Assembly (NCBI GenBank): GCA_040755395.1
Contig: JBFMAX010000006.1
Location: forward strand, 62,001-126,000
Reading direction: 5' to 3'
Source: Nitrospirota bacterium
GTDB taxonomy: Bacteria; Nitrospirota; Nitrospiria; Nitrospirales; Nitrospiraceae
Length of the DNA: 64,000 nucleotides
Made by a program: the position numbers and the translations under genes. Shown one piece after another: positions 25,660 through 39,915 of the stretch (its first letter is position 1; each line of letters begins with the position of its first letter). The notes under the pieces are model-generated. The model was not told the origin of the DNA, ran no database searches, and worked only from the letters and a program-made list of their open reading frames with translations.

Positions 25660-25723
25660 AATTCGGCGGGGTCTAAGATTTTTGATGTTCTTTTCAAGTC
25701 AAAGTCTTGAGAGAGCGGTTCCT

Positions 25724-26107
25724 ATGACCGGCGCCGAGCTTCTGCTGGATTATTTGACGCGATACTTTCCGATTCTTTTGTTTGTCGTGATCGCGCTGGC
25801 CTTCGGCGTGGTGACTCTCCTCGTGAGTTACCTGGTCCAGCCAAAATACCCGGAACCGGAAAAACTCAGCCCGTACGAATGTGGCAGCGAACCGTTTTCC
25901 GACGCGCGAATGCCGTTCCCGGTCCGCTATTACATCTTCGCGATGCTCTTTGTCATTTTCGACATCGAAGTCATCTTTCTGTATCCCTGGGCCGTGGTGT
26001 TCGACAAGATCGGACTGATCGGACTGGTCGAGATGTTGATTTTCATCGGCTTGTTCCTGGTCGCCTATGTGTATGCATGGAAAAAAGGCGCGCTGGAATG
26101 GGACTAG
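25724..26107 (+). CDS. nuoA: NADH-quinone oxidoreductase subunit A
   Basis: 127 residues with three membrane helices. The family signature YECGSEP is in the first loop and FVIFDIEVIFLYPW is in the second helix with its conserved acidic residues. NuoA is part of the membrane arm at the quinone site, where it contacts NuoH and NuoJ. ATG 25724 gives the normal length; an in-frame ATG at 25682 would add 14 non-conserved residues. It is the first gene of the nuo operon. Confidence 0.93.
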   Translation: MTGAELLLDYLTRYFPILLFVVIALAFGVVTLLVSYLVQPKYPEPEKLSPYECGSEPFSDARMPFPVRYYIFAMLFVIFDIEVIFLYPWAVVFDKIGLIGLVEMLIFIGLFLVAYVYAWKKGALEWD

Positions 26108-26108
26108 T

Positions 26109-26192
26109 TCCGTGAGGGGTGAAGGGTTAGGCGCAAGAGGTTCAGAGGAACTTGTTCCGTTCGCCTCACGCCCCACGTTTCACGCCTAACGA
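26109..26192. repeat. Inverted heptamer-array element between nuoA and nuoB
   Basis: The left arm reads CCGTGAG GGGTGAA GGGTTAG GCG. The right arm reads CGCCTCA CGCCCCA CGTTTCA CGCCTAA CG. The arms are imperfect inverted repeats with a strict seven-base period. The element starts 2 bases after the nuoA stop and ends just before the nuoB ribosome site (GAGG). Confidence 0.85.
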
Positions 26193-26199
26193 GGTTACC

Positions 26200-26715
26200 A
26201 TGGGGTTGATTCAGATCGGACGGCATGAAAAGGACGGCAATCTCGACGTCATCACGACGACGGTCGAGAAGGCGGTGAACTGGGCGCGGAAGGGCTCGCT
26301 CTGGCCCATGACGTTCGGACTCGCCTGCTGCGCCATTGAAATGATCGCCGCCGTCTCCTCGCGCTACGACATGGACCGCTACGGGGCCGGCGTCTTTCGG
26401 GCCTCGCCGCGACAGTCCGATCTCATGATCGTGGCCGGCACGGTCTGCCGGCGCATGGCGCCGGTCATCCGGAAGATCTATGATCAGATGCCGGAACCCA
26501 AGTATGTGATCGCGATGGGGTCCTGCGCCACATCCGGCAATATCTACGACAGCTACAGCGTGGTGCAGGGGGTGGATCGCTTCGTGCCGGTGGACATCTA
26601 CGTCCCCGGCTGCCCGCCGACCCCTGAAGCGCTCTTCGACGGCATTCTCAAGCTGCAAGAGCGCATCATGCAGCGGCGGGTGTTTACGAAACAACCGGAA
26701 CAGGTCAAAACATAA
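26200..26715 (+). CDS. nuoB: NADH-quinone oxidoreductase subunit B
   Basis: 171 residues, hydrophilic. It binds the N2 [4Fe-4S] cluster, the last electron carrier before quinone. The ligand motifs are visible: tandem cysteines in GLACCAIEM, Cys in MGSCATSG and Cys in [14 protein letters not shown] 26200 is chosen; the upstream in-frame extension would read through the repeat element. Confidence 0.95.
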
Positions 26716-26723
26716 TTTTGACT

Positions 26724-26829
26724 GTGGGATTATGCGATGAATGAATAACCGGGGCTGAGCGCAGCCGGCGGTTCAGGATACGCACCTATTATCGGACTAT
26801 TCCACATTCCTAATTCATAATTCCTAATT
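26724..26829. repeat. Inverted heptamer-array element between nuoB and nuoC
   Basis: The right arm is AT-rich and strictly seven-base periodic: ATTCCAC ATTCCTA ATTCATA ATTCCTA ATT. The left arm (from GTGGGATTATGCGATGAATG) is a degenerate inverse. The words differ completely from the nuoA/nuoB element, but the layout is the same. It stands out as a low-GC island in a high-GC operon. Confidence 0.75.
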
Positions 26830-26842
26830 GTCGGTGTCACGC

Positions 26843-27334
26843 ATGCATCCTCTGGCTCAGAGAATCCAGGACGCTTTCCCCGATGGCTTCGTGACGGCCG
26901 TCGAGTGGCGGGGCGATCTGGCCGTCACCGTCAAGCGGGAGGCCTTGCATCAAGTGGCGCAATTTCTTCACGACGATCCGGCAATGGATTTCGACTATAT
27001 CGTCCACGTGAGCTCGGTGGACTGGCCGGACGACGAAGAGCGCTTCGAGGTGGTGTACGAGTTCTATTCGCTGAGGAAGCGCCACCGGATCAGGTTGAAG
27101 ACACGGGTCCCCGAATCGGATTGCATCGTGGACTCCTTGACCGATATCTGGAAAGGCGCCGACTTCATGGAACGCGAGGTCTACGACATGATGGGAATCC
27201 GGTTTAGAAACCATCCCGATCTTCGTCGTATCCTCATGCCTGACGATTACCCGGAAGGGTATCCGCTCAGGAAGGATTTCCCCTTGCGCGGCAAGGGCTG
27301 GCGCGACACGTTCGAGTTTTTGAAAGAAACCTAG
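26843..27334 (+). CDS. nuoC: NADH-quinone oxidoreductase subunit C
   Basis: About 163 residues. The signature region is DIWKGADFMEREVYDMMGIRF (about residues 106-126), followed by HPDLRRILMPDDYPEGYPLRKDFP. NuoC is part of the connecting module next to NuoD and NuoB. It is a separate gene here, not fused to nuoD. ATG 26843 is chosen; a TTG at 26828 is in frame but lies in the repeat. The stop codon TAG (27332-27334) is shared with the first bases of the next repeat element. Confidence 0.93.
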   Translation: MHPLAQRIQDAFPDGFVTAVEWRGDLAVTVKREALHQVAQFLHDDPAMDFDYIVHVSSVDWPDDEERFEVVYEFYSLRKRHRIRLKTRVPESDCIVDSLTDIWKGADFMEREVYDMMGIRFRNHPDLRRILMPDDYPEGYPLRKDFPLRGKGWRDTFEFLKET

Positions 27335-27394
27335 CGAATAGCTGACCGCGAACAGCTTCGAGCTATTCGCTGTCAGCTACTTGCTGCTCGCTAC
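27333..27394. repeat. Inverted heptamer-array element between nuoC and nuoD
   Basis: The left arm reads AGCGAAT AGCTGAC CGCGAAC AGC. After a TTCGA turn the right arm reads GCTATTC GCTGTCA GCTACTT GCTGCTC GCTA. It occupies the whole gap: the nuoC stop lies in its first bases and the nuoD ribosome site follows its last base. Confidence 0.85.
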
Positions 27395-27399
27395 GAAGG

Positions 27400-28644
27400 A
27401 TGAAACTCGAAGATCAACGGACAACCGTCTATAGGGTCGATCCCGAACATCCGGAGAGCGCCACGCTTCCGACGCTCCGGACGGAAGAGCTGCTCCTGAA
27501 CATGGGGCCCCAGCACCCCAGTACGCACGGGGTGCTGAAAGTGATTTTGGAGCTGGAAGGGGAACGGATCGTCAAGTCGACGCCGGTCATGGGGTTCCTC
27601 CATCGGGGGGTCGAGAAGCTGGCCGAGGAAGGGACCTACCACCAATTCATCCCTCACACCGACCGGCTCGATTACGTCTGCGCCATGTACAACAACTTCG
27701 CCTACTGCCGGGCGGTCGAAAAGCTGATGAACATCACCGTCCCGGAACGCGCCGAGTACCTGCGCACGATCGTGGCGGAAGTCCAACGGATCATCGGCCA
27801 CCAGTTCTGGCTGGGCACTCAGGCGCTCGACATCGGCGCCATGACCGTCTTCTTTTATTGTTTCCGCGACCGCGAGATCCTGCTGGATTGGTTCGACGAG
27901 CTGTGCGGGGCCAGGCTGACCACGAGTTGGTACCGCATCGGCGGGGTGGAGCGCGATTTCACCCCCTCGCTCATCGACAAGCTTCGGAAGTTCCTGGATT
28001 ATTTTCCGCCCAAGATCGACGAGTATGTCGTGTTCCTGGAAAAAAACCGCATCTGGCTCGCGCGCACCAAAGGCGTGGCGGTGATCTCCGCCGAGGACGC
28101 GGTGAACTTCGGGCTCAGCGGCCCCACGCTCCGCGGGTCGGGCGTGGATTATGACCTGCGCAAATACGAACCCTATGCCGCCTATCCCCGTTGCGAGTTT
28201 AGCGTTCCGGTCGGCAAGAACGGCGATACGTACGACCGGTACTGGATCCGCGTCCGGGAGATGTACGAAAGCGTCAAGATCATCCGGCAATGTCTGGATC
28301 AGATGCCCGACGGGCCGATCATGGCGGACGTGCCGAGCGTGACGCTGCCGCCGAAAAACCGGGTCTTCACCAATCTCGAGTCCATGATCCAGCAATTCAA
28401 GCTCTTCTCGCAGGGGTTCAACGCCCCTCCGGGCGAGATTTATTGCGGCACGGAGGCCCACAAGGGCGAGTTGGGGTTCTACATCGTGAGCACCGGCGGA
28501 GGGAAGCCCTATCGCCTGAAAATCCGCGCTCCCTCGTTCATCCACATGGGCGCGTTCGACCACATGTCGCGAGGCTACATGATTGCGGATGCGGTGACGA
28601 TCTTCGGGACCTACGATATCGTCATGGGAGAATGCGATCGGTGA
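27400..28644 (+). CDS. nuoD: NADH-quinone oxidoreductase subunit D
   Basis: 414 residues of the 49-kDa subunit. MGPQHPSTHGVLKV carries the quinone-site His, and HTDRLDYVCAM carries the neighbouring conserved Tyr. The C-terminus ends with DIVMGECDR. NuoD forms the quinone cavity with NuoB and NuoH and descends from the NiFe-hydrogenase large subunit; the nickel cysteines are absent, as normal. GAAGG lies directly before ATG. Confidence 0.95.
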   Translation: MKLEDQRTTVYRVDPEHPESATLPTLRTEELLLNMGPQHPSTHGVLKVILELEGERIVKSTPVMGFLHRGVEKLAEEGTYHQFIPHTDRLDYVCAMYNNFAYCRAVEKLMNITVPERAEYLRTIVAEVQRIIGHQFWLGTQALDIGAMTVFFYCFRDREILLDWFDELCGARLTTSWYRIGGVERDFTPSLIDKLRKFLDYFPPKIDEYVVFLEKNRIWLARTKGVAVISAEDAVNFGLSGPTLRGSGVDYDLRKYEPYAAYPRCEFSVPVGKNGDTYDRYWIRVREMYESVKIIRQCLDQMPDGPIMADVPSVTLPPKNRVFTNLESMIQQFKLFSQGFNAPPGEIYCGTEAHKGELGFYIVSTGGGKPYRLKIRAPSFIHMGAFDHMSRGYMIADAVTIFGTYDIVMGECDR

Positions 28645-28651
28645 GGAAACA

Positions 28652-28743
28652 CGTCAATGGTCACCCGTCATTCGTCTATCGGGGAATGAGAGCCCCGCAA
28701 CTCTTCCTTTCACTGTGGACGAATGCCCAATGACGATTGACGC
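28652..28743. repeat. Inverted heptamer-array element between nuoD and nuoG
   Basis: The left arm reads GTCAATG GTCACCC GTCATTC GTC. The right arm on the other strand reads CGTCAAT CGTCATT GGGCATT C. It has a seven-base period and an inverted layout with a set of words not used in the neighbouring elements. Confidence 0.8.
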
Positions 28744-28758
28744 TGGACGGAGAGAACT

Positions 28759-31470
28759 ATGGCATTGAAACCGGCGACCAATCCTGAAGTCGAAGCGGCG
28801 ACGATCGAATTGACGATCGACGGCCAGGCCGTCACGGCCAAAGACGGAGTCTCCTTGTACGACGTCATCTCCAGCACGGGCAAGATCATTCCCGCCATGT
28901 GCTATCACTACACTTTCGACCCGTTCGGTTCGTGCGGCATGTGTTTGGTGATGCAGGAGGGCAAGAAAGCGCCCGTCCGGTCCTGCACGGCCAAGGCGAC
29001 GGCCGGCATGGTCATCCGCACGGAAGGGGAGGATTTGTTCCTGGCCAGGAAAAAGGCGGTCGAGAAGCATCTCTCGGTCCATCCTCTGGATTGCCCGGTC
29101 TGCGACGCGGACGGTCATTGCGAACTGCAGGACATGGCCTTTCTCCACGGCGTGACGAACCTCGCCAACGCCAAGCAGAAGTTCATCCCGGAAGACACGC
29201 GCAGCCTGGTCCTGGACTTCAACATGAACCGCTGCATCGCCTGCGCCGAGTGCATCAACGTCTGCAAGGACGTGCTGATGATCGATGCGCTGCAGTTCAT
29301 GAAGAAGGGCGGCTTCAACCAGGTGGTGGCCAAAGGCGACCTCCCGCTCTCCTGCGAATTCTGCGGAGACTGCCTCGCGGTCTGCCCCGTGGGGGCGATC
29401 ACGAACAAATACTCCAAGTATCTCTACAAGCCCTGGCAGATGAAGAAGACCATGACCACCTGCAACTACTGCGGGGACGGCTGCCAGATGTATCTGGAGA
29501 CCAAGGATTCGGAAGTCATCCGCGTGACCTCGCCGCTGTCCTGGAAAAACAAGTGGGGCGACCGCGCGGAGACCGCCAAGGGCCACGGCGGGTTGTGCGT
29601 CCGGGGCCGGTTCGGATTTCAGTACCTCGACAGCGAGACCCGGTTGACACAGCCGCTCGTCCGCAAGGCCAATCGGCTAGTGGAAACGCCCTGGCTCGAG
29701 ACCATGTCCGCGCTCGTGAGCCGCCTGGCCGACATCAAGGCGATGCACGGCCCGCAGGCGGTGGCCGGCCTGATCACGGCCCGCTGCACGAACGAAGAGC
29801 TCTATCTGTTCCAGAAGCTCATGCGGGCGGCGATCGGCACCAACCAGCTCGACAGCAGCGCGCGCTACGGGCACCTCAACTTCGTCCACGCCGCCCGGCG
29901 CGCGCTCGGCGTCGGGCGGATGCCGAACGATTGGGAAGACATCACCAAGGCGAAAGCGATTCTGTTGGTCGGCAGCAACATCACTGAAACCAATCCGCTC
30001 ACGGCCGTACGCGTGAAGGAGTCGATTCGGGTCTACAAGTCGCAGGTCATCGTCGTGGACTCGGCCAATACCAACATCGCCAAGCTGGCTTCTCATCCCC
30101 TGCTGGTCAAGCCGGGTACCGAGGGGCTGTTCATCGACGGGTTGGTCAAGTCGGTCATCGACCAGGATCTGGTCGACGAAGACGCGACGAGCCCGTATCC
30201 GGAGGCGTTCGCGGCGCTCAAAGAGGCGGCCGCCGGGATTTCGCTCGAACAGACCGCCGACCGCACCGGCATCGCAGTCGAACAGATCCGCGAAGCCGCG
30301 TCGATCTTCGCGGAAGCGCCGCGGGCCATCGCCCTTTGCGCGGAGGGTATCGTGCGGCGGCCGAACGGGTACCAGAACGTGCTCAAGCTGATCGATCTCG
30401 CCTGGGTCACCGGCAAACTCGGTCGGCCCGGATGCGGCGTGGGCACGCTCACCGAGGAAATCAACGAGCAAGGCGCGGTGGATATGGGTGCGGCTCCGGA
30501 GTTTTTGCCCGGCCAAGCCCGCTTCGACGACCCGGCCGCGCGCGAGCGGTTCGCCAAGGCCTGGGACGCGACGCTGCCCGCCGTCGGAACGGGAGCGACC
30601 CTCATGGACATCCTGGTTCGCTGCCGGAGCGGGCAGATCAAGGCGCTGTACCTCGTCGGCGAGAACCCGCTCGCGACGCTGCCCGCGTCCGTCGACGTGA
30701 GAACCGCGCTGGACCGGCTCGACTTGCTGATCTGCCAGGACCCTTTCCTGACCGAGACCGGGCAACTCGCCCACTTTGTGCTGCCGGCGTGCACCTACGC
30801 GGAGAAGGAAGGGACCTTCACCAACCTCGAAGGGAAGGTCCTGCGCGTGCGGCAGGCGATGGACCCTCTCGGCGAGAGCGTGCCCGACTGGCACATCATG
30901 ACGGCGATCGCGAACGGGCTGGGCTGCCAGTGGGACTACGAGTCCGCGCAGGATATCCAGAACGAGATCATGAAACTGCTGCCGGGGTATTACAACCTGG
31001 GCCAACCACGGAAGATCAGTCCCAAGCCGGAAGCTTCCTATCTCTCGAACGGCTATGCGGCCGAGGTCAGGAGTCGTTATTCGGCAAGCGGCAAGCGGCA
31101 AGCGGGGGCGGAGAACGGCCATCGGTTCGGTTTGACGATAGGGCAGGTCCTCTACCACTCCGGCAAGCTGTCCACCCGGGCGTCCGGACTGATCAAGGTC
31201 GCCCCCAATACGGGGCGGCTCCAGATGAACCCGCAAGACCTGGAGCGACTCGGGCTCGGAGAGCACGCGAAGGTCAGAGTCACTTCGGAACGGGGATCGG
31301 TGGAACTGGGCGTGGAGGCGGATCCGGCCATCATGCCGGGCGCCTGCTTTTTCCCGGAGCATTTCAACCAGCCCCCGGTCAAGGATTTGATGCCGGTCGA
31401 GGCTGACCCGACCACCGGAGTTCCGTCCTTCAAGTTCACGTGGGTCAATATTGAAAAGGTCGGCGGTTGA
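28759..31470 (+). CDS. nuoG: NADH-quinone oxidoreductase subunit G
   Basis: 903 residues. An N-terminal [2Fe-2S] ferredoxin domain (SCGMCLVMQEG; N1b), the His-Cys cluster (HPLDCPVCDADGHC; N5), and two [4Fe-4S] sites (CIACAECINVC and CEFCGDCLAVCP) are seen. A further CNYCGDGC plus CVRGRFG matches the extra N7 cluster. A molybdopterin-oxidoreductase-like domain without visible cofactor function fills about 230-900. NuoG normally receives electrons from NuoF/NuoE, but neither gene is here, so the electron donor is open. A local insertion near residue 775 (SASGKRQAG) looks repeat-derived (GGCAAGC words). Confidence 0.93.
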   Translation: MALKPATNPEVEAATIELTIDGQAVTAKDGVSLYDVISSTGKIIPAMCYHYTFDPFGSCGMCLVMQEGKKAPVRSCTAKATAGMVIRTEGEDLFLARKKAVEKHLSVHPLDCPVCDADGHCELQDMAFLHGVTNLANAKQKFIPEDTRSLVLDFNMNRCIACAECINVCKDVLMIDALQFMKKGGFNQVVAKGDLPLSCEFCGDCLAVCPVGAITNKYSKYLYKPWQMKKTMTTCNYCGDGCQMYLETKDSEVIRVTSPLSWKNKWGDRAETAKGHGGLCVRGRFGFQYLDSETRLTQPLVRKANRLVETPWLETMSALVSRLADIKAMHGPQAVAGLITARCTNEELYLFQKLMRAAIGTNQLDSSARYGHLNFVHAARRALGVGRMPNDWEDITKAKAILLVGSNITETNPLTAVRVKESIRVYKSQVIVVDSANTNIAKLASHPLLVKPGTEGLFIDGLVKSVIDQDLVDEDATSPYPEAFAALKEAAAGISLEQTADRTGIAVEQIREAASIFAEAPRAIALCAEGIVRRPNGYQNVLKLIDLAWVTGKLGRPGCGVGTLTEEINEQGAVDMGAAPEFLPGQARFDDPAARERFAKAWDATLPAVGTGATLMDILVRCRSGQIKALYLVGENPLATLPASVDVRTALDRLDLLICQDPFLTETGQLAHFVLPACTYAEKEGTFTNLEGKVLRVRQAMDPLGESVPDWHIMTAIANGLGCQWDYESAQDIQNEIMKLLPGYYNLGQPRKISPKPEASYLSNGYAAEVRSRYSASGKRQAGAENGHRFGLTIGQVLYHSGKLSTRASGLIKVAPNTGRLQMNPQDLERLGLGEHAKVRVTSERGSVELGVEADPAIMPGACFFPEHFNQPPVKDLMPVEADPTTGVPSFKFTWVNIEKVGG

Positions 31471-31520
31471 GAGTAAGCTCTGCCGACTTGACCCAGCCGC
31501 AGTCCTGAGTGGAGAGCAAG

Positions 31521-32108
31521 ATGAGCGTCGGCGTCCTCGCGAAAAAAGTGCTCCAGGCCGCGTTGTTTTACGAGATCTGGGATGCGATGAAGGTGACGTT
31601 CAAGCACATGTTCCACCGCCCCATCACGTTCCAGTATCCCCGGGAGCATCGGACCATCCCCGACACGCATCGGGGCACGCTCGGACTGTTGCGGTACGAC
31701 GACGGACAGGAACGTTGCGTCGGCTGCGATCTGTGCGAAGCCGCCTGTCCCTCTCATTGCATCAAGGTCATCAGCGCGGAAGACAAGACCCGCCCGCTTC
31801 AGCGATACGCCAGCGAGTTCTATATCGATATCACCAAGTGCGTGTTCTGCGGCTATTGCGTGGAGGCCTGTCCGGTCAACGCCCTAGCCATGACCAAGAT
31901 GTACGAATACTCCACCCACGACAAACGCCAACTGCTGTTCGACAAGAAGCGGCTCTACGAGATCGGCGAGCGCCATCTCGCTGACGCCAAGAAATATTTG
32001 CAAGCGCACAACCAGGAAAAGGACGACGAGTGGAGCCGTGAATACCGATACTTTTTCCCCCAGTCGGTTCTCAAGCCCACGCAGCCGCCGCCTAAACATC
32101 TGAGCTGA
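31521..32108 (+). CDS. nuoI: NADH-quinone oxidoreductase subunit I
   Basis: About 195 residues with two ferredoxin-type [4Fe-4S] sites, CVGCDLCEAACP and CVFCGYCVEACP (N6a/N6b of the TYKY subunit). An N-terminal amphipathic stretch lies against the membrane arm. ATG 31521 follows GGAGAGCAAG. It comes only 50 bases after nuoG; nuoH, which usually sits between G and I, is missing. Confidence 0.95.
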   Translation: MSVGVLAKKVLQAALFYEIWDAMKVTFKHMFHRPITFQYPREHRTIPDTHRGTLGLLRYDDGQERCVGCDLCEAACPSHCIKVISAEDKTRPLQRYASEFYIDITKCVFCGYCVEACPVNALAMTKMYEYSTHDKRQLLFDKKRLYEIGERHLADAKKYLQAHNQEKDDEWSREYRYFFPQSVLKPTQPPPKHLS

Positions 32109-32118
32109 TCCAACCTGC

Positions 32119-32661
32119 ATGGTCCCGGTCTTTTTCGCCTACTTCTCCCTGGTGAGCATCGCAGCGGGGATTTTGACCGTTGCGTTGAAGAACCCTGTCC
32201 ACTGCGGGCTCGCCTTGCTGACGCTGCTGTTGCACGTCGCCGGCCTGTTCGTCCTGCTCAACGCCGAATTTCTCTTCGCGGTGCAGATCATCGTGTACGC
32301 CGGCGCGATCCTGGTGCTCTACCTCTTTGTGTTGATGTTGCTCAATTTGAAAACGGAAGAGCGGTACTTTCATACCCGCTACGCGCTGATCCTTTTCGCC
32401 GCCGTCGCCATCGCTGGCGAGTTGCTGCTCCTGGTGCTCCGATCGCCGTTCGGCGGATCGAAGGGCGATGCGCCAGCGGAGGTAGTTCTCCGAGACGGCG
32501 CGAGCTATGCCGTCGGCATCAAGATGTTCAGCGACTATCTTTTGCCCTTCGAGATCGTCGGAGTTTTTCTGCTGGGGGCCATCATCGGCGCGATCGTCCT
32601 CGCCAAGACCCCCTCGACAGCGGACGCGGAAGGTCGTGAGGGGATAAGGCGTGAGGCGTGA
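32119..32661 (+). CDS. nuoJ: NADH-quinone oxidoreductase subunit J
   Basis: 180 residues with five membrane helices. The conserved VYAGAILVLYLFVLMLLNL (about 56-74) is the TM3 pi-bulge region thought to couple quinone reduction to pumping. The last 12 or so residues (EGREGIRREA) are encoded by the left arm of a heptamer repeat, which also supplies the stop codon. Confidence 0.93.
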   Translation: MVPVFFAYFSLVSIAAGILTVALKNPVHCGLALLTLLLHVAGLFVLLNAEFLFAVQIIVYAGAILVLYLFVLMLLNLKTEERYFHTRYALILFAAVAIAGELLLLVLRSPFGGSKGDAPAEVVLRDGASYAVGIKMFSDYLLPFEIVGVFLLGAIIGAIVLAKTPSTADAEGREGIRREA

Positions 32662-32743
32662 GGAGTTGAGAGTCGGAGAAAGGCGGGCACATGCGGCTGG
32701 CTTCGGGGTTTCGCCTCACCCCTGACGCCTTACGCCTAACGGG
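32633..32743. repeat. Inverted heptamer-array element overlapping the nuoJ end
   Basis: The left arm reads CGTGAGG GGATAAG GCGTGAG GCGTGAG. The right arm reads CGCCTCA CCCCTGA CGCCTTA CGCCTAA CGGG. It uses the same word family as the nuoA/nuoB, nuoM and nuoM2 elements. The left arm lies inside nuoJ, and the right arm ends 2 bases before the nuoK start. Confidence 0.85.
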
Positions 32744-32745
32744 TT

Positions 32746-33048
32746 ATGGTGCCTCTGAGCGCATACGTGGCCGTCAGCGCGATCCTGTTCGCTACCGGGT
32801 TGATCGGCGTGTTGATCCGCCGGAACTTCATCATCGTCCTGATGGCGGTGGAGATCATGCTGAACGCGGCGAACATCAACCTCGTCGCCTTCTCGCATTA
32901 CCTGGAATCCATGGCCGGCCAGATCGTCGCCCTCTTTGTCATCGCCATTGCGGCGGGAGAAGCGGCCGTCGGCCTGGCCATCATCATCGTCGTGTTCCGA
33001 GGCAAGATTTCGACCAACGTGGACGAAATGGCCCTCTTGAAGTGGTAA
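32746..33048 (+). CDS. nuoK: NADH-quinone oxidoreductase subunit K
   Basis: 100 residues, three membrane helices, MrpC-like. The conserved Glu of the second helix is in MAVEIMLNAANINLVAF, and the third-helix Glu is in AAGEAAVGLAI; these belong to the fourth proton channel. The stop is 1 base before the nuoL start, so translation is probably coupled. Confidence 0.95.
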   Translation: MVPLSAYVAVSAILFATGLIGVLIRRNFIIVLMAVEIMLNAANINLVAFSHYLESMAGQIVALFVIAIAAGEAAVGLAIIIVVFRGKISTNVDEMALLKW

Positions 33049-33049
33049 C

Positions 33050-35047
33050 GTGTTCGAGCTGCTGGTCGTTCTGATTCCGCTCTTCCCGCTGACGGCCGTG
33101 ATCCTGAACGGCCTGCTCGGCCACCGCTATTCCCACGAGGCCGCGCACAAACTCGCCTGGGGCTCGGTCGGGCTGTCGTTTCTCTGCGCGATCGGCGTCT
33201 TCGCCGACACGCTGAAGTCCGGCGGCGCCACCCGCGAGGTGACGGCCTATCAATGGATCTTCGGCGGCGACCTGACGATCAATCTGGCTTTCCTGATCGA
33301 TCCGCTGACCTGCATCATGCTGCTGGTCGTGACCGGCGTGGGCTTCCTCATCCACATCTATTCGGTCGGGTACATGCACGGCGAGGAAGGATTCACGCGC
33401 TTCTTCACCTACATGAACCTCTTCATGGTCTCCATGTTGCTGTTGGTGATGGGCAACAACTATGCGGTGCTGTTCATCGGGTGGGAAGGCGTCGGGCTCT
33501 GTTCCTACCTGCTGATCGGCTACTATTACGACCGCGTGTCGGCCGCCAAGGCGGCGACCAAAGCCTTCGTCGTCAATCGGATCGGCGATGCCGGCTTCCT
33601 GCTGGCGATCTTCCTGGTCTTCGTCAATTTCAAAACCCTCGATTACACCAAGGTCTTCGCGCAGGTCGGGTCGCTCACGCCCGAGACCGCCACCGCGATC
33701 GCGCTCTGTCTGCTCATCGGCGCCGTCGGCAAATCGGCGCAGATTCCGCTCTATACCTGGCTGCCCGACGCGATGGAAGGCCCGACGCCGGTCAGCGCGC
33801 TGATCCATGCCGCCACGATGGTCACCGCCGGCGTCTATATGATCGTCCGCAATCACGCGATCTACGACCTTTCGCCGGTCGCGATGACGACGGTGGCGTG
33901 GGTCGGCGGCGGGACGGCGCTGTTCGCCGCGACGATCGGACTGGTGCAGACCGACATCAAGCGCGTGTTGGCCTATTCGACCGTCAGCCAGCTCGGATAC
34001 ATGTTTTTGGGCTGCGGCATCGGGGCGTACACCGCCGCTATTTTCCACCTGATGACCCATGCGTTCTTCAAGGCCCTACTGTTTCTCTCCGCCGGCTCGG
34101 TGATCCACGCCCTGGGCGGCGAACAGGACATCCGCAAGATGGGCGGTCTCAAATCGAAAATCCCCTGGACGCACCGGCTGTTCCTGATCGGAACCTTGGC
34201 CATCGCCGGCATCTTTCCCCTGGCCGGGTTCTGGAGCAAGGACGAGATCATGGCCCACGCGTTCACGCACCAGGACTATGCGTTGTACGCGATGGCCGCG
34301 CTGGGCGCCTTCCTCACGGCGTTCTATATGTTCCGCCTGACCTACCTTACGTTCTACGGCGAGTCGCGGGTGGATCACCACACAGCCGAGCACATCCATG
34401 AGGCTCCGCCCGTGATGATCGGGCCCCTGGTCGTGCTGGCGGCGCTCTCGGTCGTCGGCGGCTTCCCCGGCGTTCCGCCGGAGAGCGGCTGGTTCCATCA
34501 TTTTCTCCGGCCCGTCGCCGCGGCCGCCGGAGACACCCATGAACCGAGCGTCGGGGTGGTGCTGACGTTGATGGGCGTCGCCACCGTGATCGCGCTGGCG
34601 GGGTGGGGGTTCGCCCATTATCTGTACAGCGTCCGTCCGGGGACGGCGGACGTGTGGGCCGCGCGCATGCCCGTGGCCTACGGGACGCTGCTGAACAAAT
34701 ATTATGTCGACGAGATCTACGACGCGCTGTTCGTCGAACCGACGAAACGCCTGGGGGTGCTGTTGGACTGGTTCGACCGGACCGTGATCGACGGGGTCGT
34801 CCGCGCGGTCGGCCGGCTCACGGAAACCGGCTCGGCCGTCAGCACCTGGTTCGAGAAGCATGTCATCTACGGGGTCCTGAACGTCATCGGCTACGCCAAT
34901 CACTTGGCCGCCCGGTCCTGGCGCAGGCTCCAGAGCGGCATGGTCCATCACTACGCGGCCATCATCGTCGCGGGGCTGTTCATCCTGGTCCATCTCCTGC
35001 TGCTCTGGTGGACCGGCTCGTCTCCCATCGGGATCGCGTTGCGGTAG
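33050..35047 (+). CDS. nuoL: NADH-quinone oxidoreductase subunit L
   Basis: 665 residues, an Mrp-antiporter-like subunit with about 16 helices and the long lateral helix near the C-terminus. Key residues are visible: the TM5 Glu in FIGWEGVGLCSYLLIG, the TM7 Lys in GAVGKSAQIPLYTWLPDAMEGP, and the His/Lys axis around ALIHAATMVTAGVYM. The start is GTG 33050. It is longer than the 613-residue E. coli protein. A longer lateral helix is expected if it must span two NuoM subunits; this is inference that needs alignment. Confidence 0.94.
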   Translation: MFELLVVLIPLFPLTAVILNGLLGHRYSHEAAHKLAWGSVGLSFLCAIGVFADTLKSGGATREVTAYQWIFGGDLTINLAFLIDPLTCIMLLVVTGVGFLIHIYSVGYMHGEEGFTRFFTYMNLFMVSMLLLVMGNNYAVLFIGWEGVGLCSYLLIGYYYDRVSAAKAATKAFVVNRIGDAGFLLAIFLVFVNFKTLDYTKVFAQVGSLTPETATAIALCLLIGAVGKSAQIPLYTWLPDAMEGPTPVSALIHAATMVTAGVYMIVRNHAIYDLSPVAMTTVAWVGGGTALFAATIGLVQTDIKRVLAYSTVSQLGYMFLGCGIGAYTAAIFHLMTHAFFKALLFLSAGSVIHALGGEQDIRKMGGLKSKIPWTHRLFLIGTLAIAGIFPLAGFWSKDEIMAHAFTHQDYALYAMAALGAFLTAFYMFRLTYLTFYGESRVDHHTAEHIHEAPPVMIGPLVVLAALSVVGGFPGVPPESGWFHHFLRPVAAAAGDTHEPSVGVVLTLMGVATVIALAGWGFAHYLYSVRPGTADVWAARMPVAYGTLLNKYYVDEIYDALFVEPTKRLGVLLDWFDRTVIDGVVRAVGRLTETGSAVSTWFEKHVIYGVLNVIGYANHLAARSWRRLQSGMVHHYAAIIVAGLFILVHLLLLWWTGSSPIGIALR

Positions 35048-35069
35048 AGCGCGTAAAGGGCATCACGCG

Positions 35070-36704
35070 ATGTTGGAAGAATTCGGCGCAGGGTTCCCCA
35101 TCCTCTCCTGTCTGCTCTTCCTCCCGCTGCTGGGCGCGGTGGCGCTGTGGTTTCTGGAGGACGAGGATTTGGTGAAAGTCACGGCGCTGGCGGTGGCGCT
35201 GCTGGAGCTGGCGCTCGCCGCGTTCGTGCTCCTGCGCTTCGTGCCGGAGTCGGCGGCCATGCAGTTCACGGAGCGGGCGCGGTGGATTCCTCCGTTGGGG
35301 ATCAGCTACCACCTGGCGGTGGACGGCATCAGCGTGCTGTTCGTCGGCCTCACGGCGTTCCTGACCGTGCTGATCGTGATCTATTCCTGGGATACGGTCC
35401 GGCATCAAGCGAAGTTGTACCTGATGGCGTTGCTGGGACTCGAGACCACGATCATGGGGGTCTTCGTCTCGATCGACCTGATCCTGTTTTTCGTCTTTTG
35501 GGAGCTCATGCTGATCCCCAGCTACTTCCTGATCAAGCTCTGGGGAGGCGGGCCGGAACGGCACTACGCGGCGTTGAAGTACGTCCTGTACACGCTGCTG
35601 GGCAGTGTCTTCATGTTGGTGGGGTTCGCCCTGCTCGACATCAATTACCACCGGTGGGCGGTCACGCATCATGTCGAGCCGTCTTATTCGTTCGATCTGC
35701 TCGAGCTGCTCACGGTGCCGGTGCCGGTCGATCAACAGCTTGTGATCTTCTGGCTGATCTTCCTGGGCCTGGCCTTCAAGGCCCCGGTGTTCCCGTTCCA
35801 TACCTGGCTGCCCGACGCTCTGCTCGAGGGACCGATCGGGATGGCCGTGGTGCTCGCCGGGCTGAAACTCGGGACCTACGGGTTCTTGCGTTTCAGCATC
35901 CCGCTGCTGCCGGAAGCTTCGAAGAACGAAGTGGTCGTGACGGTCGTGATGGCGCTGGCTCTCGCCGGGATCCTCTACGGCGCGATCATGGCCTTGATCC
36001 AGCCGGACTTTCGCCGGCTCCTGGCCTTCAGCAGCATCAGCCACCTGGGCTTCTGCGTGGTCGGTCTGTTTGCCCTGAACTTTCAGGGGCTCCAGGGTAG
36101 CCTGCTCACGATGATCAATCTCGGCTTCAGCACCGCCGGCTTGTTCTTCCTCGCCGGCTTCCTGTACGTGAGACGGCACAGCACGCAACTCTCCGTGTTG
36201 GGCGGAGGGCTGGCCAGGCAAGTGCCGCTGCTCGCCACGTTCCTGCTCATCATCGGCCTGGCTTCCATCGGATTGCCCGGGACGAACGGGTTCGTCGGCG
36301 AGTTTCTGATCCTCCTGGGGGCGTTCAAAGCCAAATGGGTGTACGGGGCCATCGCGGTGACCGGAGTCATTTTCGGGGCGGCCTATTTCCTGTGGTACTA
36401 CGAGCGGTCGATGATGGGCCCTCTGACGAAGGGGCCGGGACAGGCGATGCCCGATCTGCACGCGCGGGAGATCGCCATCGCGGTCTCGCTGTGCGTCATG
36501 ATCCTCTGGATCGGGCTCTATCCTTCCCCGTTCCTGCGGATGATGAACGGATCGGTCCAGGCGTTGGTGGACAGGCTGGAACGGGGCGCGACGGCGGGAC
36601 AACCGGTAGGCGTGAGGGGTGAGGCGTTAGGCGAAGTGGAGCTATCCTCTCGCACTGCATCCCCTCACGCTTCACGTTTCACGCTTCACGGGACTTGGAG
36701 ATGA
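35070..36704 (+). CDS. nuoM: NADH-quinone oxidoreductase subunit M, first copy
   Basis: 544 residues, antiporter-like. It has the full central axis: Glu145 in FVFWELMLIPSY (TM5), Lys237 in GLAFKAPVFPFHTWLPDA (TM7) and Lys266 in VLAGLKLGTYG (TM8), matching E. coli E144, K234 and K265. The last ~40 residues (from GQPVGVRGEA to FTLHGTWR) are encoded by a heptamer repeat and are not conserved sequence. The stop overlaps the next nuoM start (ATGA). Confidence 0.94.
   Translation: MLEEFGAGFPILSCLLFLPLLGAVALWFLEDEDLVKVTALAVALLELALAAFVLLRFVPESAAMQFTERARWIPPLGISYHLAVDGISVLFVGLTAFLTVLIVIYSWDTVRHQAKLYLMALLGLETTIMGVFVSIDLILFFVFWELMLIPSYFLIKLWGGGPERHYAALKYVLYTLLGSVFMLVGFALLDINYHRWAVTHHVEPSYSFDLLELLTVPVPVDQQLVIFWLIFLGLAFKAPVFPFHTWLPDALLEGPIGMAVVLAGLKLGTYGFLRFSIPLLPEASKNEVVVTVVMALALAGILYGAIMALIQPDFRRLLAFSSISHLGFCVVGLFALNFQGLQGSLLTMINLGFSTAGLFFLAGFLYVRRHSTQLSVLGGGLARQVPLLATFLLIIGLASIGLPGTNGFVGEFLILLGAFKAKWVYGAIAVTGVIFGAAYFLWYYERSMMGPLTKGPGQAMPDLHAREIAIAVSLCVMILWIGLYPSPFLRMMNGSVQALVDRLERGATAGQPVGVRGEALGEVELSSRTASPHASRFTLHGTWR
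36608..36692. repeat. Inverted heptamer-array element inside the nuoM 3' end
   Basis: The left arm reads GCGTGAG GGGTGAG GCGTTAG GCG. The right arm reads CCCCTCA CGCTTCA CGTTTCA CGCTTCA CGGG. It is fully inside the open frame of the first nuoM and encodes its tail (SPHASRFTLHG). Confidence 0.88.
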
Positions 36705-38422
36705 GCGACTCCACGCTGCTCTACATTTTATTCGCGCCCTTCGTCGGGTCCATCGTGCTGGTGTTCGTCTCGAACCGGCAGGCGCTCTTGGTGCGCGGGA
36801 TCGCCGCTGTCTCGGCCGGAATCTCGCTGATCGCCTCGTTTTACCTCTTCTACGCGTACGACCCCGTCAAAGGCGGGTTCCAATTCCTCTGGCGGTACGA
36901 ATGGTCCACACAGCTCGGCGTGTCGCTCTACCTCGGCGTGGACGGCATCGGCACCCCGCTGGTCCTGGCTTCCTCCATTCTGCTGTTCGCCGGCATCTTC
37001 GTCTCCTGGCACATCAAGGACCGCACCAAGGAGTTCTACATCTCGCTCCTGATCTTGGCCGCGGCGACGATCGGCGTCTTCATGTCGCTGGACCTCTTCT
37101 TCCTCTATTTCTTCTATGAGATGTCCGTGATTCCCATGTACCTCCTGCTCGGCATCTGGGGGAGCCACACGAAGGGCTATCTGGAGATGACCGACCCCGA
37201 GGGGATCAAGAAACGGGACTCCGTCGGCTTCATCTTCAATTTCGCCTCGAACAGCAAGGAATACGCGGCGATGAAGCTGGTGCTGTTCCTCTCGGCCGGC
37301 GCCGTCGTCGCCCTCATGGGGATCCTCCTCATCTACAAGTTCTCCGGTCTGAACACGTTCGACATTCTGGTGCTGCGCGAACAGGCGAAATTCACCGGGC
37401 TGCTGGCGGACATCATCTGGCTCCTGATTTTCTTCGGCTTCGCCTCCATCGCCCCGATCTGGCCGCTGCACTCCTGGTCGCCGGTCGGGCACGCCGCCGC
37501 GCCCGCCGCCACGAGCATGTTGCACGCCGGCGTGCTGATGAAGCTGGGGCACTTCTCGATCATCCGGGTGGCGTTCGAGATTCTGCCGGAGACGACGCAG
37601 GAGCTGATGCCGATCGCCGCGGTGCTCTGCGTCTTCAGCATCATCTACGGCGGCTTCGTGGCCTTCTACGCGAAGGACACCAAGTACGTGATCGGCTACT
37701 CCAGTTCCAGCCATATGGGGTACGTGTTCCTCGGGATGGCGGCGCTGGACTACATCAGCCTGACCGGCGCGGTGCTGTACATGTTCGCCCACGCCTTGGC
37801 GACCGGCATGCTCTTCGCCATGGCCGGCTGGGTGTACGACCAGACCCACTCGCGGGACATCCCCTCGCTGGGCGGACTGGTCAACCGCATGCCCTTCGTC
37901 GCGGGCTGTTTCATCGTGGCCTGCATGGCCTCGATCGGCATGCCGGGCACGGTGAACTTCATCGCCGAAATCATGATCATCGTCGGCAGTTGGAACAAGT
38001 ACCCGCTGCAGGTCATCATCGCCGTGGTCGGCATCGTGCTGACGATGGCCTATCTCTTCCGGATGATGCGCGGGGTCTTCTACGGGCCGATGTCGCAACA
38101 CTACAGCCACGCCCACGACGCGGTGGCGACCGTCGACCGGCTGCCACTGCTCCTGATGATCGCCTGCAGCATCGGCTTCGGCATTTTCCCCGGACATTTT
38201 TATTCGGTGATCCGGTCCGGCGTCGATCCGTTGGTCGCGCGCATCACCCAGGTGGTGCCGATCGCATCAGTAGACCGTGAAGCGGGGCACCCATTGCGCT
38301 CTGCAGAGCAATGGGTCCCGGTGAAGCGTGAAGCGAACGCGGCGGCCGCGCTGACCCTGCCGACCGTCGCTTCCAATGACGCCTCACGCCTCACGCCTCA
38401 CGCCTCACGAGGAAAAGAGTGA
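36701..38422 (+). CDS. nuoM: NADH-quinone oxidoreductase subunit M, second copy (NuoM2)
   Basis: 573 residues, antiporter-like, clearly diverged from the first NuoM. Glu140 (YFFYEMSVIPMY, TM5) and Lys281 (AGVLMKLGHF, TM8) are kept. At the TM7 position the motif reads FASIAPIWPLHSW, so Ile250 stands where Lys is expected, and the usual LPDAH is SPVGH. There is an insertion of about 30 residues after TM5 (TKGYLEMTDPEG region). The last ~50 residues (from VDREAGHPL) are repeat-encoded. ATG 36701 overlaps the previous stop (ATGA). It belongs to the extended 2M complex I. Confidence 0.92.
   Translation: MSDSTLLYILFAPFVGSIVLVFVSNRQALLVRGIAAVSAGISLIASFYLFYAYDPVKGGFQFLWRYEWSTQLGVSLYLGVDGIGTPLVLASSILLFAGIFVSWHIKDRTKEFYISLLILAAATIGVFMSLDLFFLYFFYEMSVIPMYLLLGIWGSHTKGYLEMTDPEGIKKRDSVGFIFNFASNSKEYAAMKLVLFLSAGAVVALMGILLIYKFSGLNTFDILVLREQAKFTGLLADIIWLLIFFGFASIAPIWPLHSWSPVGHAAAPAATSMLHAGVLMKLGHFSIIRVAFEILPETTQELMPIAAVLCVFSIIYGGFVAFYAKDTKYVIGYSSSSHMGYVFLGMAALDYISLTGAVLYMFAHALATGMLFAMAGWVYDQTHSRDIPSLGGLVNRMPFVAGCFIVACMASIGMPGTVNFIAEIMIIVGSWNKYPLQVIIAVVGIVLTMAYLFRMMRGVFYGPMSQHYSHAHDAVATVDRLPLLLMIACSIGFGIFPGHFYSVIRSGVDPLVARITQVVPIASVDREAGHPLRSAEQWVPVKREANAAAALTLPTVASNDASRLTPHASRGKE
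38274..38412. repeat. Heptamer-array element with nested hairpin inside the nuoM2 3' end
   Basis: The right arm has four perfect copies of CGCCTCA followed by CGAGG. The left arm has CGTGAAGC words (GTGAAGC GTGAAGC GAACG). Between the left-arm words sits a near-perfect hairpin CCCATTGC...GCAATGGG (38290-38315). All of it lies in the nuoM2 reading frame and encodes the tail ASRLTPHASRGKE. Confidence 0.88.
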
Positions 38423-39915
38423 CGTTCAATCTCACCATGACTGGGTCCGATCTCCTGCTGCTCCTGCCGGAGATCTTCCTCACGTTCTGGCTGTGCGTCG
38501 TGCTGAGCGTGGACTTTGCTCTGCCGAAACTCCCGAAGGAGCAACTGGCCTACCTGAGCATCGGGGGACTGGTGCTGACCTTGGGGTGTCTCGCCTGGTT
38601 CGATCTGTCGGGGGTCTCGGGCACGCTCTTCAACCGGATGTTCGTCGTGGACCGGATGGCCTTGTTCTTCAAGATGTTCATCGTCGGCGCGACGGTGCTG
38701 GTCATTCTGGCTTCGATCGACTACGTCCGGCGGTTTCGGTTTTTCAAAGGTGAATACTACTTCCTGGTCCTGATGTCGGCGCTGGGCATGATGTTCATGG
38801 CTTCCGCCAATGACCTGCTCTCCGTCTTCATCACGCTGGAATTTTCGACCTTCGGGTTCTACGTGCTGGTGGCGTACCTGCGCGATGACATGGCCTCGAA
38901 CGAGGCGGGGCTCAAATTCTTCATCCTCGGCGTGTTCGCCGCCGGGCTCCTGGCCTACGGGATCAGCCTGGTGTACGGAGAAACCGGCAAGATCGTCTTC
39001 GCCGACATGACCGCCGCGTCCGCCACCCCGGGACTGGCGATCGGGTTCCTGCTGATCTTCGCCGCGCTGGGCTTCAAGATCGGCGCGGTTCCGTTCCATG
39101 CCTGGATTCCGGACACGTACCACGGAGCGCCGACGCCGGTCACGGCGTTCCTCTCGATCGCGCCCAAGGGCGCAGCCTTCGCGATTCTGATCCGCATGTT
39201 CTTCGTGGCGCTCGCGACGTTCAAGCCGACCTGGGTGCTGCTGCTCGTCGGCGCCTCGATCCTGTCCATGACGTACGGCAACATCGTGGCCATCGCGCAG
39301 CGGAACATCAAACGCCTGCTGGCCTACTCCGGTATCGCGCAGATCGGGAACGTGCTTATCGGGTTGGCCGCGGGCACCAAGATGGGCAGCGACGCCATTC
39401 TCTTCTACCTGCTGACCTATCTGTTCGCCAACCTCGGCGCCTTCGCGGTCGTGATCGCGGTGGGGAATTTCATCGGCAGCGACGAGATCGACGATTACAA
39501 CGGCCTCAATCGCCGGTCGCCGTTCCTGGCATTCGCGATGCTGATCTTCCTGCTCTCCCTCGCGGGGGTGCCGCCGCTCGCGGGCTTCATCGGCAAGCTC
39601 TACATCTTCGTGGCGGCCATTCAGGAAGGGCTCTACACGCTGATCATCGTCGGCCTGGTGAACATCGTGATTTCCATGTACTACTACCTGGTCGTCGTCA
39701 AGAAGATGTACATCCATGAGCCGACGGATCCCTCGCCCCTGAGCGTCTCCGGACCGATGAGGGCCGTGGTCTACGTGGGGCTGGCGGGCACGCTGATCCT
39801 GGGCATCTACCCTCAACCGTTCATCGACTGGGTGGTCGCCGCCACCCTCATGTTCTCCAACCTCGCCGGCCCATCGGCCTCGGTCGCGCCCCCGCTCCCT
39901 CCGTTCGGCGGCTGA
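38419..39915 (+). CDS. nuoN: NADH-quinone oxidoreductase subunit N
   Basis: 498 residues, antiporter-like with 14 helices. Key residues: the TM5 Glu in FITLEFSTFGFYVLVAY, the TM7 Lys in LGFKIGAVPFHAWIPDTYHGAP and the TM8 Lys in FLSIAPKGAAFAI. GTG 38419 overlaps the nuoM2 stop (GTGA). It is the last gene of the operon. Confidence 0.94.
   Translation: MTFNLTMTGSDLLLLLPEIFLTFWLCVVLSVDFALPKLPKEQLAYLSIGGLVLTLGCLAWFDLSGVSGTLFNRMFVVDRMALFFKMFIVGATVLVILASIDYVRRFRFFKGEYYFLVLMSALGMMFMASANDLLSVFITLEFSTFGFYVLVAYLRDDMASNEAGLKFFILGVFAAGLLAYGISLVYGETGKIVFADMTAASATPGLAIGFLLIFAALGFKIGAVPFHAWIPDTYHGAPTPVTAFLSIAPKGAAFAILIRMFFVALATFKPTWVLLLVGASILSMTYGNIVAIAQRNIKRLLAYSGIAQIGNVLIGLAAGTKMGSDAILFYLLTYLFANLGAFAVVIAVGNFIGSDEIDDYNGLNRRSPFLAFAMLIFLLSLAGVPPLAGFIGKLYIFVAAIQEGLYTLIIVGLVNIVISMYYYLVVVKKMYIHEPTDPSPLSVSGPMRAVVYVGLAGTLILGIYPQPFIDWVVAATLMFSNLAGPSASVAPPLPPFGG

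Follow-up and report, generated by a model that had tools for sequence, protein, structure and literature searches.

An extra NuoM subunit without the TM7 lysine in the 2M complex I of Nitrospiria, and the TM8 histidine that marks its lineage

Does an antiporter-like subunit of complex I need the lysine of transmembrane helix 7 (TM7) to move a proton? The pair formed by this lysine and a glutamate of TM5 is central to most published models coupling quinone chemistry to pumping. Mutation of the lysine in Escherichia coli NuoL, NuoM or NuoN resulted in loss of function (PMC3046159), and PMC7419157 describes this lysine as essential and absolutely conserved. The question is raised by a 64,000-nucleotide stretch of DNA from a Nitrospirota bacterium (assembly GCA_040755395.1, contig JBFMAX010000006.1, positions 62,001 to 126,000), hereafter the window, which carries a complex I gene cluster with two nuoM genes (2M complex I). 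A sequence-only reading of this DNA had claimed that the product of the second gene, NuoM2, has an isoleucine where the first, NuoM1, has the lysine, and the open reading frame, coordinates and residues were found to be as claimed:

36701..38422, + strand: nuoM2, encoding the additional NuoM of the 2M complex I, which has no TM7 lysine (573 amino acids, ATG at 36701).
37448..37450, + strand: ATC codon of Ile250, at the TM7 lysine position (E. coli NuoM K234).

Although it lacks the TM7 lysine, which is a functional hallmark, NuoM2 still belongs to TIGR01972 (NDH_I_M; 420 bits for a cut-off of 263.8), and PF00361 is also matched. Ile250 lies in the context FASIAPIWPLHSW, and the equivalent residue of NuoM1 is Lys237 in FKAPVFPFHTW. 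Pairwise alignments to Paracoccus, cyanobacterial and plant NuoM, as well as multiple alignments with E. coli NuoM, NuoN and NuoL, all set Ile250 on the TM7 lysine (E. coli NuoM Lys234). A shifted alignment with another lysine or histidine at the TM7 site was considered and rejected: none of the alignments places one there, the neighbouring residues being S, A, P, I/L and W. Homologues of nuoM2 were found across the family, the order and much of the class. Isoleucine occupies position 250 in all 130 NuoM2 sequences compared (118 distinct), a count that excludes L139, the NuoM of a separate one-NuoM complex with Leu at the TM7 site. Among the distinct sequences its codon is ATC in 89 and ATT in 28; the ATC of the window is two base changes away from AAA or AAG. 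In the same sequence set, NuoM1 has the TM7 lysine in 128/128. The loss of this lysine is fixed in the NuoM2 of Nitrospiria 2M complexes. The earlier reading had left room for an error in one assembly, which the 130 concordant sequences exclude, and for lysine being kept in most 2M complexes, which is false for the Nitrospiria group.

The median pairwise ratio of nonsynonymous to synonymous substitution rates (dN/dS; Nei-Gojobori type, dS 0.15–1.5, pairs non-independent) is 0.069 for nuoM2 versus 0.105 for nuoM1, and nuoM2 is under strong purifying selection. The presence of Ile in 130/130 sequences, the exclusively synonymous codon variation at the site and the low dN/dS argue that Ile250 is held by selection and is not a product of decay. 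By the same three observations an assembly error or a pseudogene was ruled out. A sequencing error, or a decaying duplicate under relaxed selection, is thus practically out of the question, as the genome of the window is also rated 100% complete and NuoM2 is no recent copy of NuoM1.

Is the subunit otherwise built like a pump? An AlphaFold2 model of NuoM2, built with 88 window and Nitrospira sequences, reached a mean predicted local distance difference test score (pLDDT) of 80.7; most core helices score close to 90 or higher. It has an antiporter-like fold in which TM7 and TM12 are broken. The predicted break of TM7 at residues 249–254 (helices 233–248 and 255–266) suggests that the half-helix architecture of this helix is kept; TM12 is broken at 413–417 (helices 398–412 and 418–430). 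NuoM chains from the PDB match the model with Z of about 51 and a root-mean-square deviation of 1.6–1.9 over about 490 residues. The NuoM1 model, which has only moderate confidence in the TM7–TM8 region, was not used. The low-confidence C-terminal tail of NuoM2 is partly encoded by a dispersed palindrome resembling repetitive extragenic palindromic (REP) elements (38270–38341); another 13 places in the genome match it in part.

In isolated modules the proton path runs from the TM8 lysine through a histidine to the TM12 glutamate, while the TM5 Glu–TM7 Lys pair, located about 14 Å from this path in Nqo13, modulates it electrostatically, the barrier being lower when the pair is open (PMC11496545). 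The corresponding residues of NuoM2, together with other marked features of the protein, are as follows:

37118..37120, + strand: Glu140, the TM5 ion-pair carboxylate (E. coli E144), kept.
37166..37252, + strand: insert between TM5 and TM6, about 27 residues long (156–184) and conserved in 2M NuoM2.
37523..37525, + strand: His275 on TM8, an ionizable channel-helix residue in the register of NuoL His254.
37541..37543, + strand: Lys281, the TM8 middle lysine (E. coli K265), invariant.
37550..37552, + strand: His284 on TM8, specific to 2M NuoM2 (130/132; Ala, Thr or Gly elsewhere).
37712..37714, + strand: His338 (E. coli H322), invariant.
37790..37792, + strand: His364 (E. coli H348), replaced by Asp in six deep-branching NuoM2.
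37967..37969, + strand: Glu423, the TM12 distal glutamate (E. coli E407), kept.

All remaining functional hallmarks, i.e. the TM5 Glu, the TM8 Lys, the TM12 Glu and the His322-type residue, are thus present. Glu140, Lys281, His338 and Glu423 are essentially invariant among NuoM2, which bears out the earlier statement that the first two are kept. The ion pair modulates this path, all of which NuoM2 retains (Lys281–His338–Glu423). The absence of the lysine therefore speaks for a changed gating and is no direct evidence against pumping. The suggestion that NuoM2 may not pump by the usual route, or uses another residue, stands in part only; its second half fits a TM8 histidine, His275, which marks every member of the lysine-less clade described below. 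NuoM2 could instead be a passive spacer or lateral relay that lengthens the arm and passes on the electrostatic signal while moving no proton itself. The residue that is missing from this extra module is, after all, the one whose mutation kills the function of E. coli NuoM (PMC3046159). The near invariance of the four residues and the low dN/dS make such a role unlikely, as does the finding that the same lysine-less type is the only NuoM in other complexes (see below).

Which residue, if any, could stand in for the lysine? We screened for all positions at which a conserved ionizable residue distinguishes NuoM without the TM7 lysine from NuoM that have it. A single channel-helix position, that of His275 on TM8, fully separates the two groups: histidine is found in 23/23 lysine-less rows and in none of the 46 rows of lysine-bearing NuoM and NuoM1 (Leu, and one Phe). 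In the larger sequence set His275 is present in 132/132. R480 is also common to the lysine-less rows, but its place is much further down the chain, close to the C-terminal helices. His275 stands 16 residues past a conserved Trp and 14 ahead of a conserved Arg, exactly as His254 of NuoL, without gaps; two other alignments insert a one-column gap between the two registers. NuoL His254 has been described as a switch, one conformation of which points to the Lys–Glu pair (PMC13358369). The TM8 pattern H-x5-K is found in NuoM2 and in rhizobial MrpA-like subunits, NuoL having the histidine alone. This pattern, common to MrpA-like subunits, could also mean that the half-channel resembles those of MrpA and NuoL, regarded by some authors as Na+ channels (PMC4938563), and that the ion selectivity of NuoM2 is altered (e.g. 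towards Na+). We regard this as very unlikely, given that no cation site was identified and that the NuoM-type TM12 Glu is kept.

In NuoL the TM5 Glu is partnered by an Arg or Lys of TM6. No such residue was found on TM6 of NuoM2, its K192 being a general lysine of the family. The TM5–TM6 insert (GSHTKGYLEMTDPEG..RDSVGFIFNF) is absent from NuoM1 and from the one-NuoM lysine-less relatives, and may form a contact found only in the four-pump arm. Position 280 of NuoM2 is also Lys, and position 364 Asp, in most of the deeper five-pump hybrids.

Where does the lysine-less subunit come from? A tree was built from 45 antiporter-like subunits with the TM7–TM8 columns (residues 244–292) removed; it contains long branches, of which the tree program warns. 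All NuoM, NuoM2 included, grouped apart from NuoN and NuoL (support 100/100). NuoM2, the NuoM of a one-NuoM complex in another genome, G181, and three Bacteroidales NuoM form one clade (support 100/97), whereas NuoM1 is placed among ordinary NuoM. The Bacteroidales concerned are three only: Bacteroides finegoldii, Phocaeicola and Prevotella plasmid records. An origin of NuoM2 by duplication of NuoM1 was rejected, the approximately unbiased (AU) test giving p-AU 8e-15 for NuoM1 and NuoM2 as sisters. The two subunits stem from separate NuoM lineages, and the 2M arm was therefore not built by copying NuoM1.

The state of the TM7 lysine on the tree is explained by one change. No member of the clade has this lysine: the site is Ile or Leu, and Leu in the single NuoM of G181 and of the Bacteroidales. 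Each of these complexes has one NuoM. The Prevotella operon comprises nuoA, B, C, H, I, J, K, L, M and N, and the cluster on contig C16 of G181 (same class) comprises L, M and N with a NuoG-like gene. The gene for the G181 NuoM (L159:7643-9244, − strand) belongs to a one-NuoM complex I cluster, and the same genome also has a 2M/MrpD-type cluster. The loss is thus not peculiar to the extra 2M module, as had been supposed, and, with the same loss in the single NuoM of G181 and Bacteroidales, it most simply predates the 2M arrangement. Within the phylum but outside the class Nitrospiria, no lysine-less NuoM was found among the 20 best loci fetched with a Bacteroides NuoM query, all of which keep the lysine; a scan of viral contigs with the lysine-less clade gave no relative. 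Lysine-less NuoM may also occur in the remaining Bacteroidota, beyond the three Bacteroidales seen.

How could such a subunit work? In an old NuoM lineage, the TM7 lysine, paired with the TM5 Glu, would have been replaced once by Ile or Leu, and a TM8 histidine would have been gained six residues before the TM8 lysine. His275 most likely faces Glu140 and would take over the gating and coupling of the missing lysine. As the main path from Lys281 through His338 to Glu423 is kept, NuoM2 most likely still translocates a proton, presumably one per cycle. For the whole of this proposal, i.e. that NuoM2 moves a proton through Lys281–His338–Glu423 with a histidine-based gate instead of the Lys–Glu ion pair, we see about even chances. 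Slightly less probable is its extension to a widespread natural NuoM lineage, including the sole NuoM of some complex I, that pumps without the TM7 lysine by means of a TM8 histidine gate.

Several points weigh against this histidine gate. The loss of lysine and the gain of histidine occurred on one branch, so that their association counts as a single event and not as a statistical test. Function is lost when K234 is mutated in E. coli (PMC3046159). Finally, rhizobial-type MrpD2 carries Asn in place of the TM7 lysine and has no TM8 histidine, and the lysine may thus be dispensable without compensation by a histidine. This last observation also fits a reading in which no replacement is needed: Glu140 would meet Lys281 directly, and the pair would be permanently open, as in the E123Q mimic, which would make the module faster but also leakier. 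Opening is known to lower the barrier on the path from the TM8 Lys to the TM12 Glu (PMC11496545). A module of this kind could suit reverse electron transport consuming proton motive force; PMC6606698 proposes that the Nitrospira 2M complex runs in reverse towards ferredoxin. It leaves unexplained, however, that a TM8 histidine arose with the loss and is kept in every member of the clade, and we hold it to be improbable. The permanently open pair without replacement and the passive spacer are the main rivals of the histidine gate.

If the histidine gate is correct, the Lys–Glu ion pair is not obligatory for coupling in complex I. The lysine-less clade, with its TM8 histidine at the NuoL switch position, makes the role of the pair testable with natural proteins. 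It includes the sole NuoM pump of some gut Bacteroidales and hence offers a natural test of proton pumping by complex I. The finding is relevant, too, to the claim of an additional proton moved per cycle by 2M complexes.

Which complex does NuoM2 belong to in the window? The other genes of the cluster are:

25682..33048, + strand: remaining 2M cluster with nuoA, B, C, D, G, I, J and K (nuoA and nuoB by sequence motif).
28759..31470, + strand: enlarged nuoG (903 amino acids).
33050..35047, + strand: nuoL; the lateral helix region of its product has about 26 residues more than that of the canonical NuoL of the same genome.
35070..36704, + strand: nuoM1, which keeps TM7 Lys237; an ordinary NuoM in the tree.
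38419..39915, + strand: nuoN, TM7 lysine kept.

No nuoE, nuoF or nuoH was found in the nuo cluster of the window (25682–39915). The genome has two NuoH-like genes, on contigs C1 and C4, neither of them in the 2M cluster, and the canonical complex I may supply the NuoH of the 2M complex. By analogy, the gene order L-M1-M2-N suggests that NuoM2 may adjoin NuoN in the membrane arm. The NuoM1 of Nitrospirales 2M complexes has peculiarities of its own: compared with other NuoM, two residues are missing from the stretch just before its TM8 lysine (residues 265–266; 119/128), and residue 351, at the position of E. coli H348, is Leu instead of His, likewise in 119/128. Heptamer repeats (TCACGYN)n occur at the 3' ends of nuo genes (32650–32661, 36665–36690 and 38379–38409). 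The three-unit pattern is found at 78 places in the genome, and the reversed control at none.

How does this complex compare with known systems? Two nuoM genes in one nuo cluster, a lengthened NuoL lateral helix and the lack of nuoH correspond to the clade 3 type of Nitrospira 2M complex I (Chadwick et al. 2018, cited through PMC6606698, which reports the lack of nuoH in such clusters). The adjacency of the nuoM pair, the enlarged NuoG and the lack of nuoE and nuoF add to this likeness, and the window cluster is a 2M complex I of this type. The missing TM7 lysine is not mentioned in the consulted parts of PMC6606698, PMC7117926 and PMC12342949, nor in PMC9040806 as far as the term "lysine" retrieves it, and these open 2M papers are, to the same extent, silent on the TM8 histidine and on a separate origin of NuoM2; Chadwick et al. 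2018 itself lies outside this comparison, and a prior mention there is possible. With canonical NuoM/ND4/Nqo13, NuoM2 shares the fold, the broken TM7, the TM5 Glu, the TM8 Lys, the His322-type residue and the TM12 Glu, but it differs by Ile in place of the TM7 lysine, the added TM8 histidine and the TM5–TM6 insert. The single NuoM of the Bacteroidales and of G181 are of the same clade, with Leu for the TM7 lysine and an identical TM8 SMLHAGVLMKLG. Unlike NuoM2, they are the sole NuoM of their complex and have neither the insert nor His284. The TM8 histidine of NuoM2 is in register with the histidine switch of NuoL and MrpA (His254 in E. coli NuoL), and its H-x5-K is that of MrpA-like subunits. 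However, NuoL and MrpA keep the TM7 lysine, and the TM12 residue of NuoM2 is Glu, not Lys. As the switch partner, the TM7 lysine, is replaced by Ile250, NuoM2 is no NuoL/MrpA-type subunit and may resemble them in function at His275 only. Finally, a five-pump Complex_I_3 type has been described for Ca. Manganitrophaceae (PMC9040806). Loci L124–L130 show its layout (MrpD1, MrpD2, M1, M2 and N) in part or whole, with Ile at the TM7 site of NuoM2; they differ by MrpD1 and MrpD2 in place of NuoL and by a NuoM2 that mostly has Lys-Lys on TM8. The MrpD2 examined from these loci has Asn at the TM7 site. With Asn in MrpD2 and Ile in NuoM2, two of the five modules of such complexes are therefore without the TM7 lysine.

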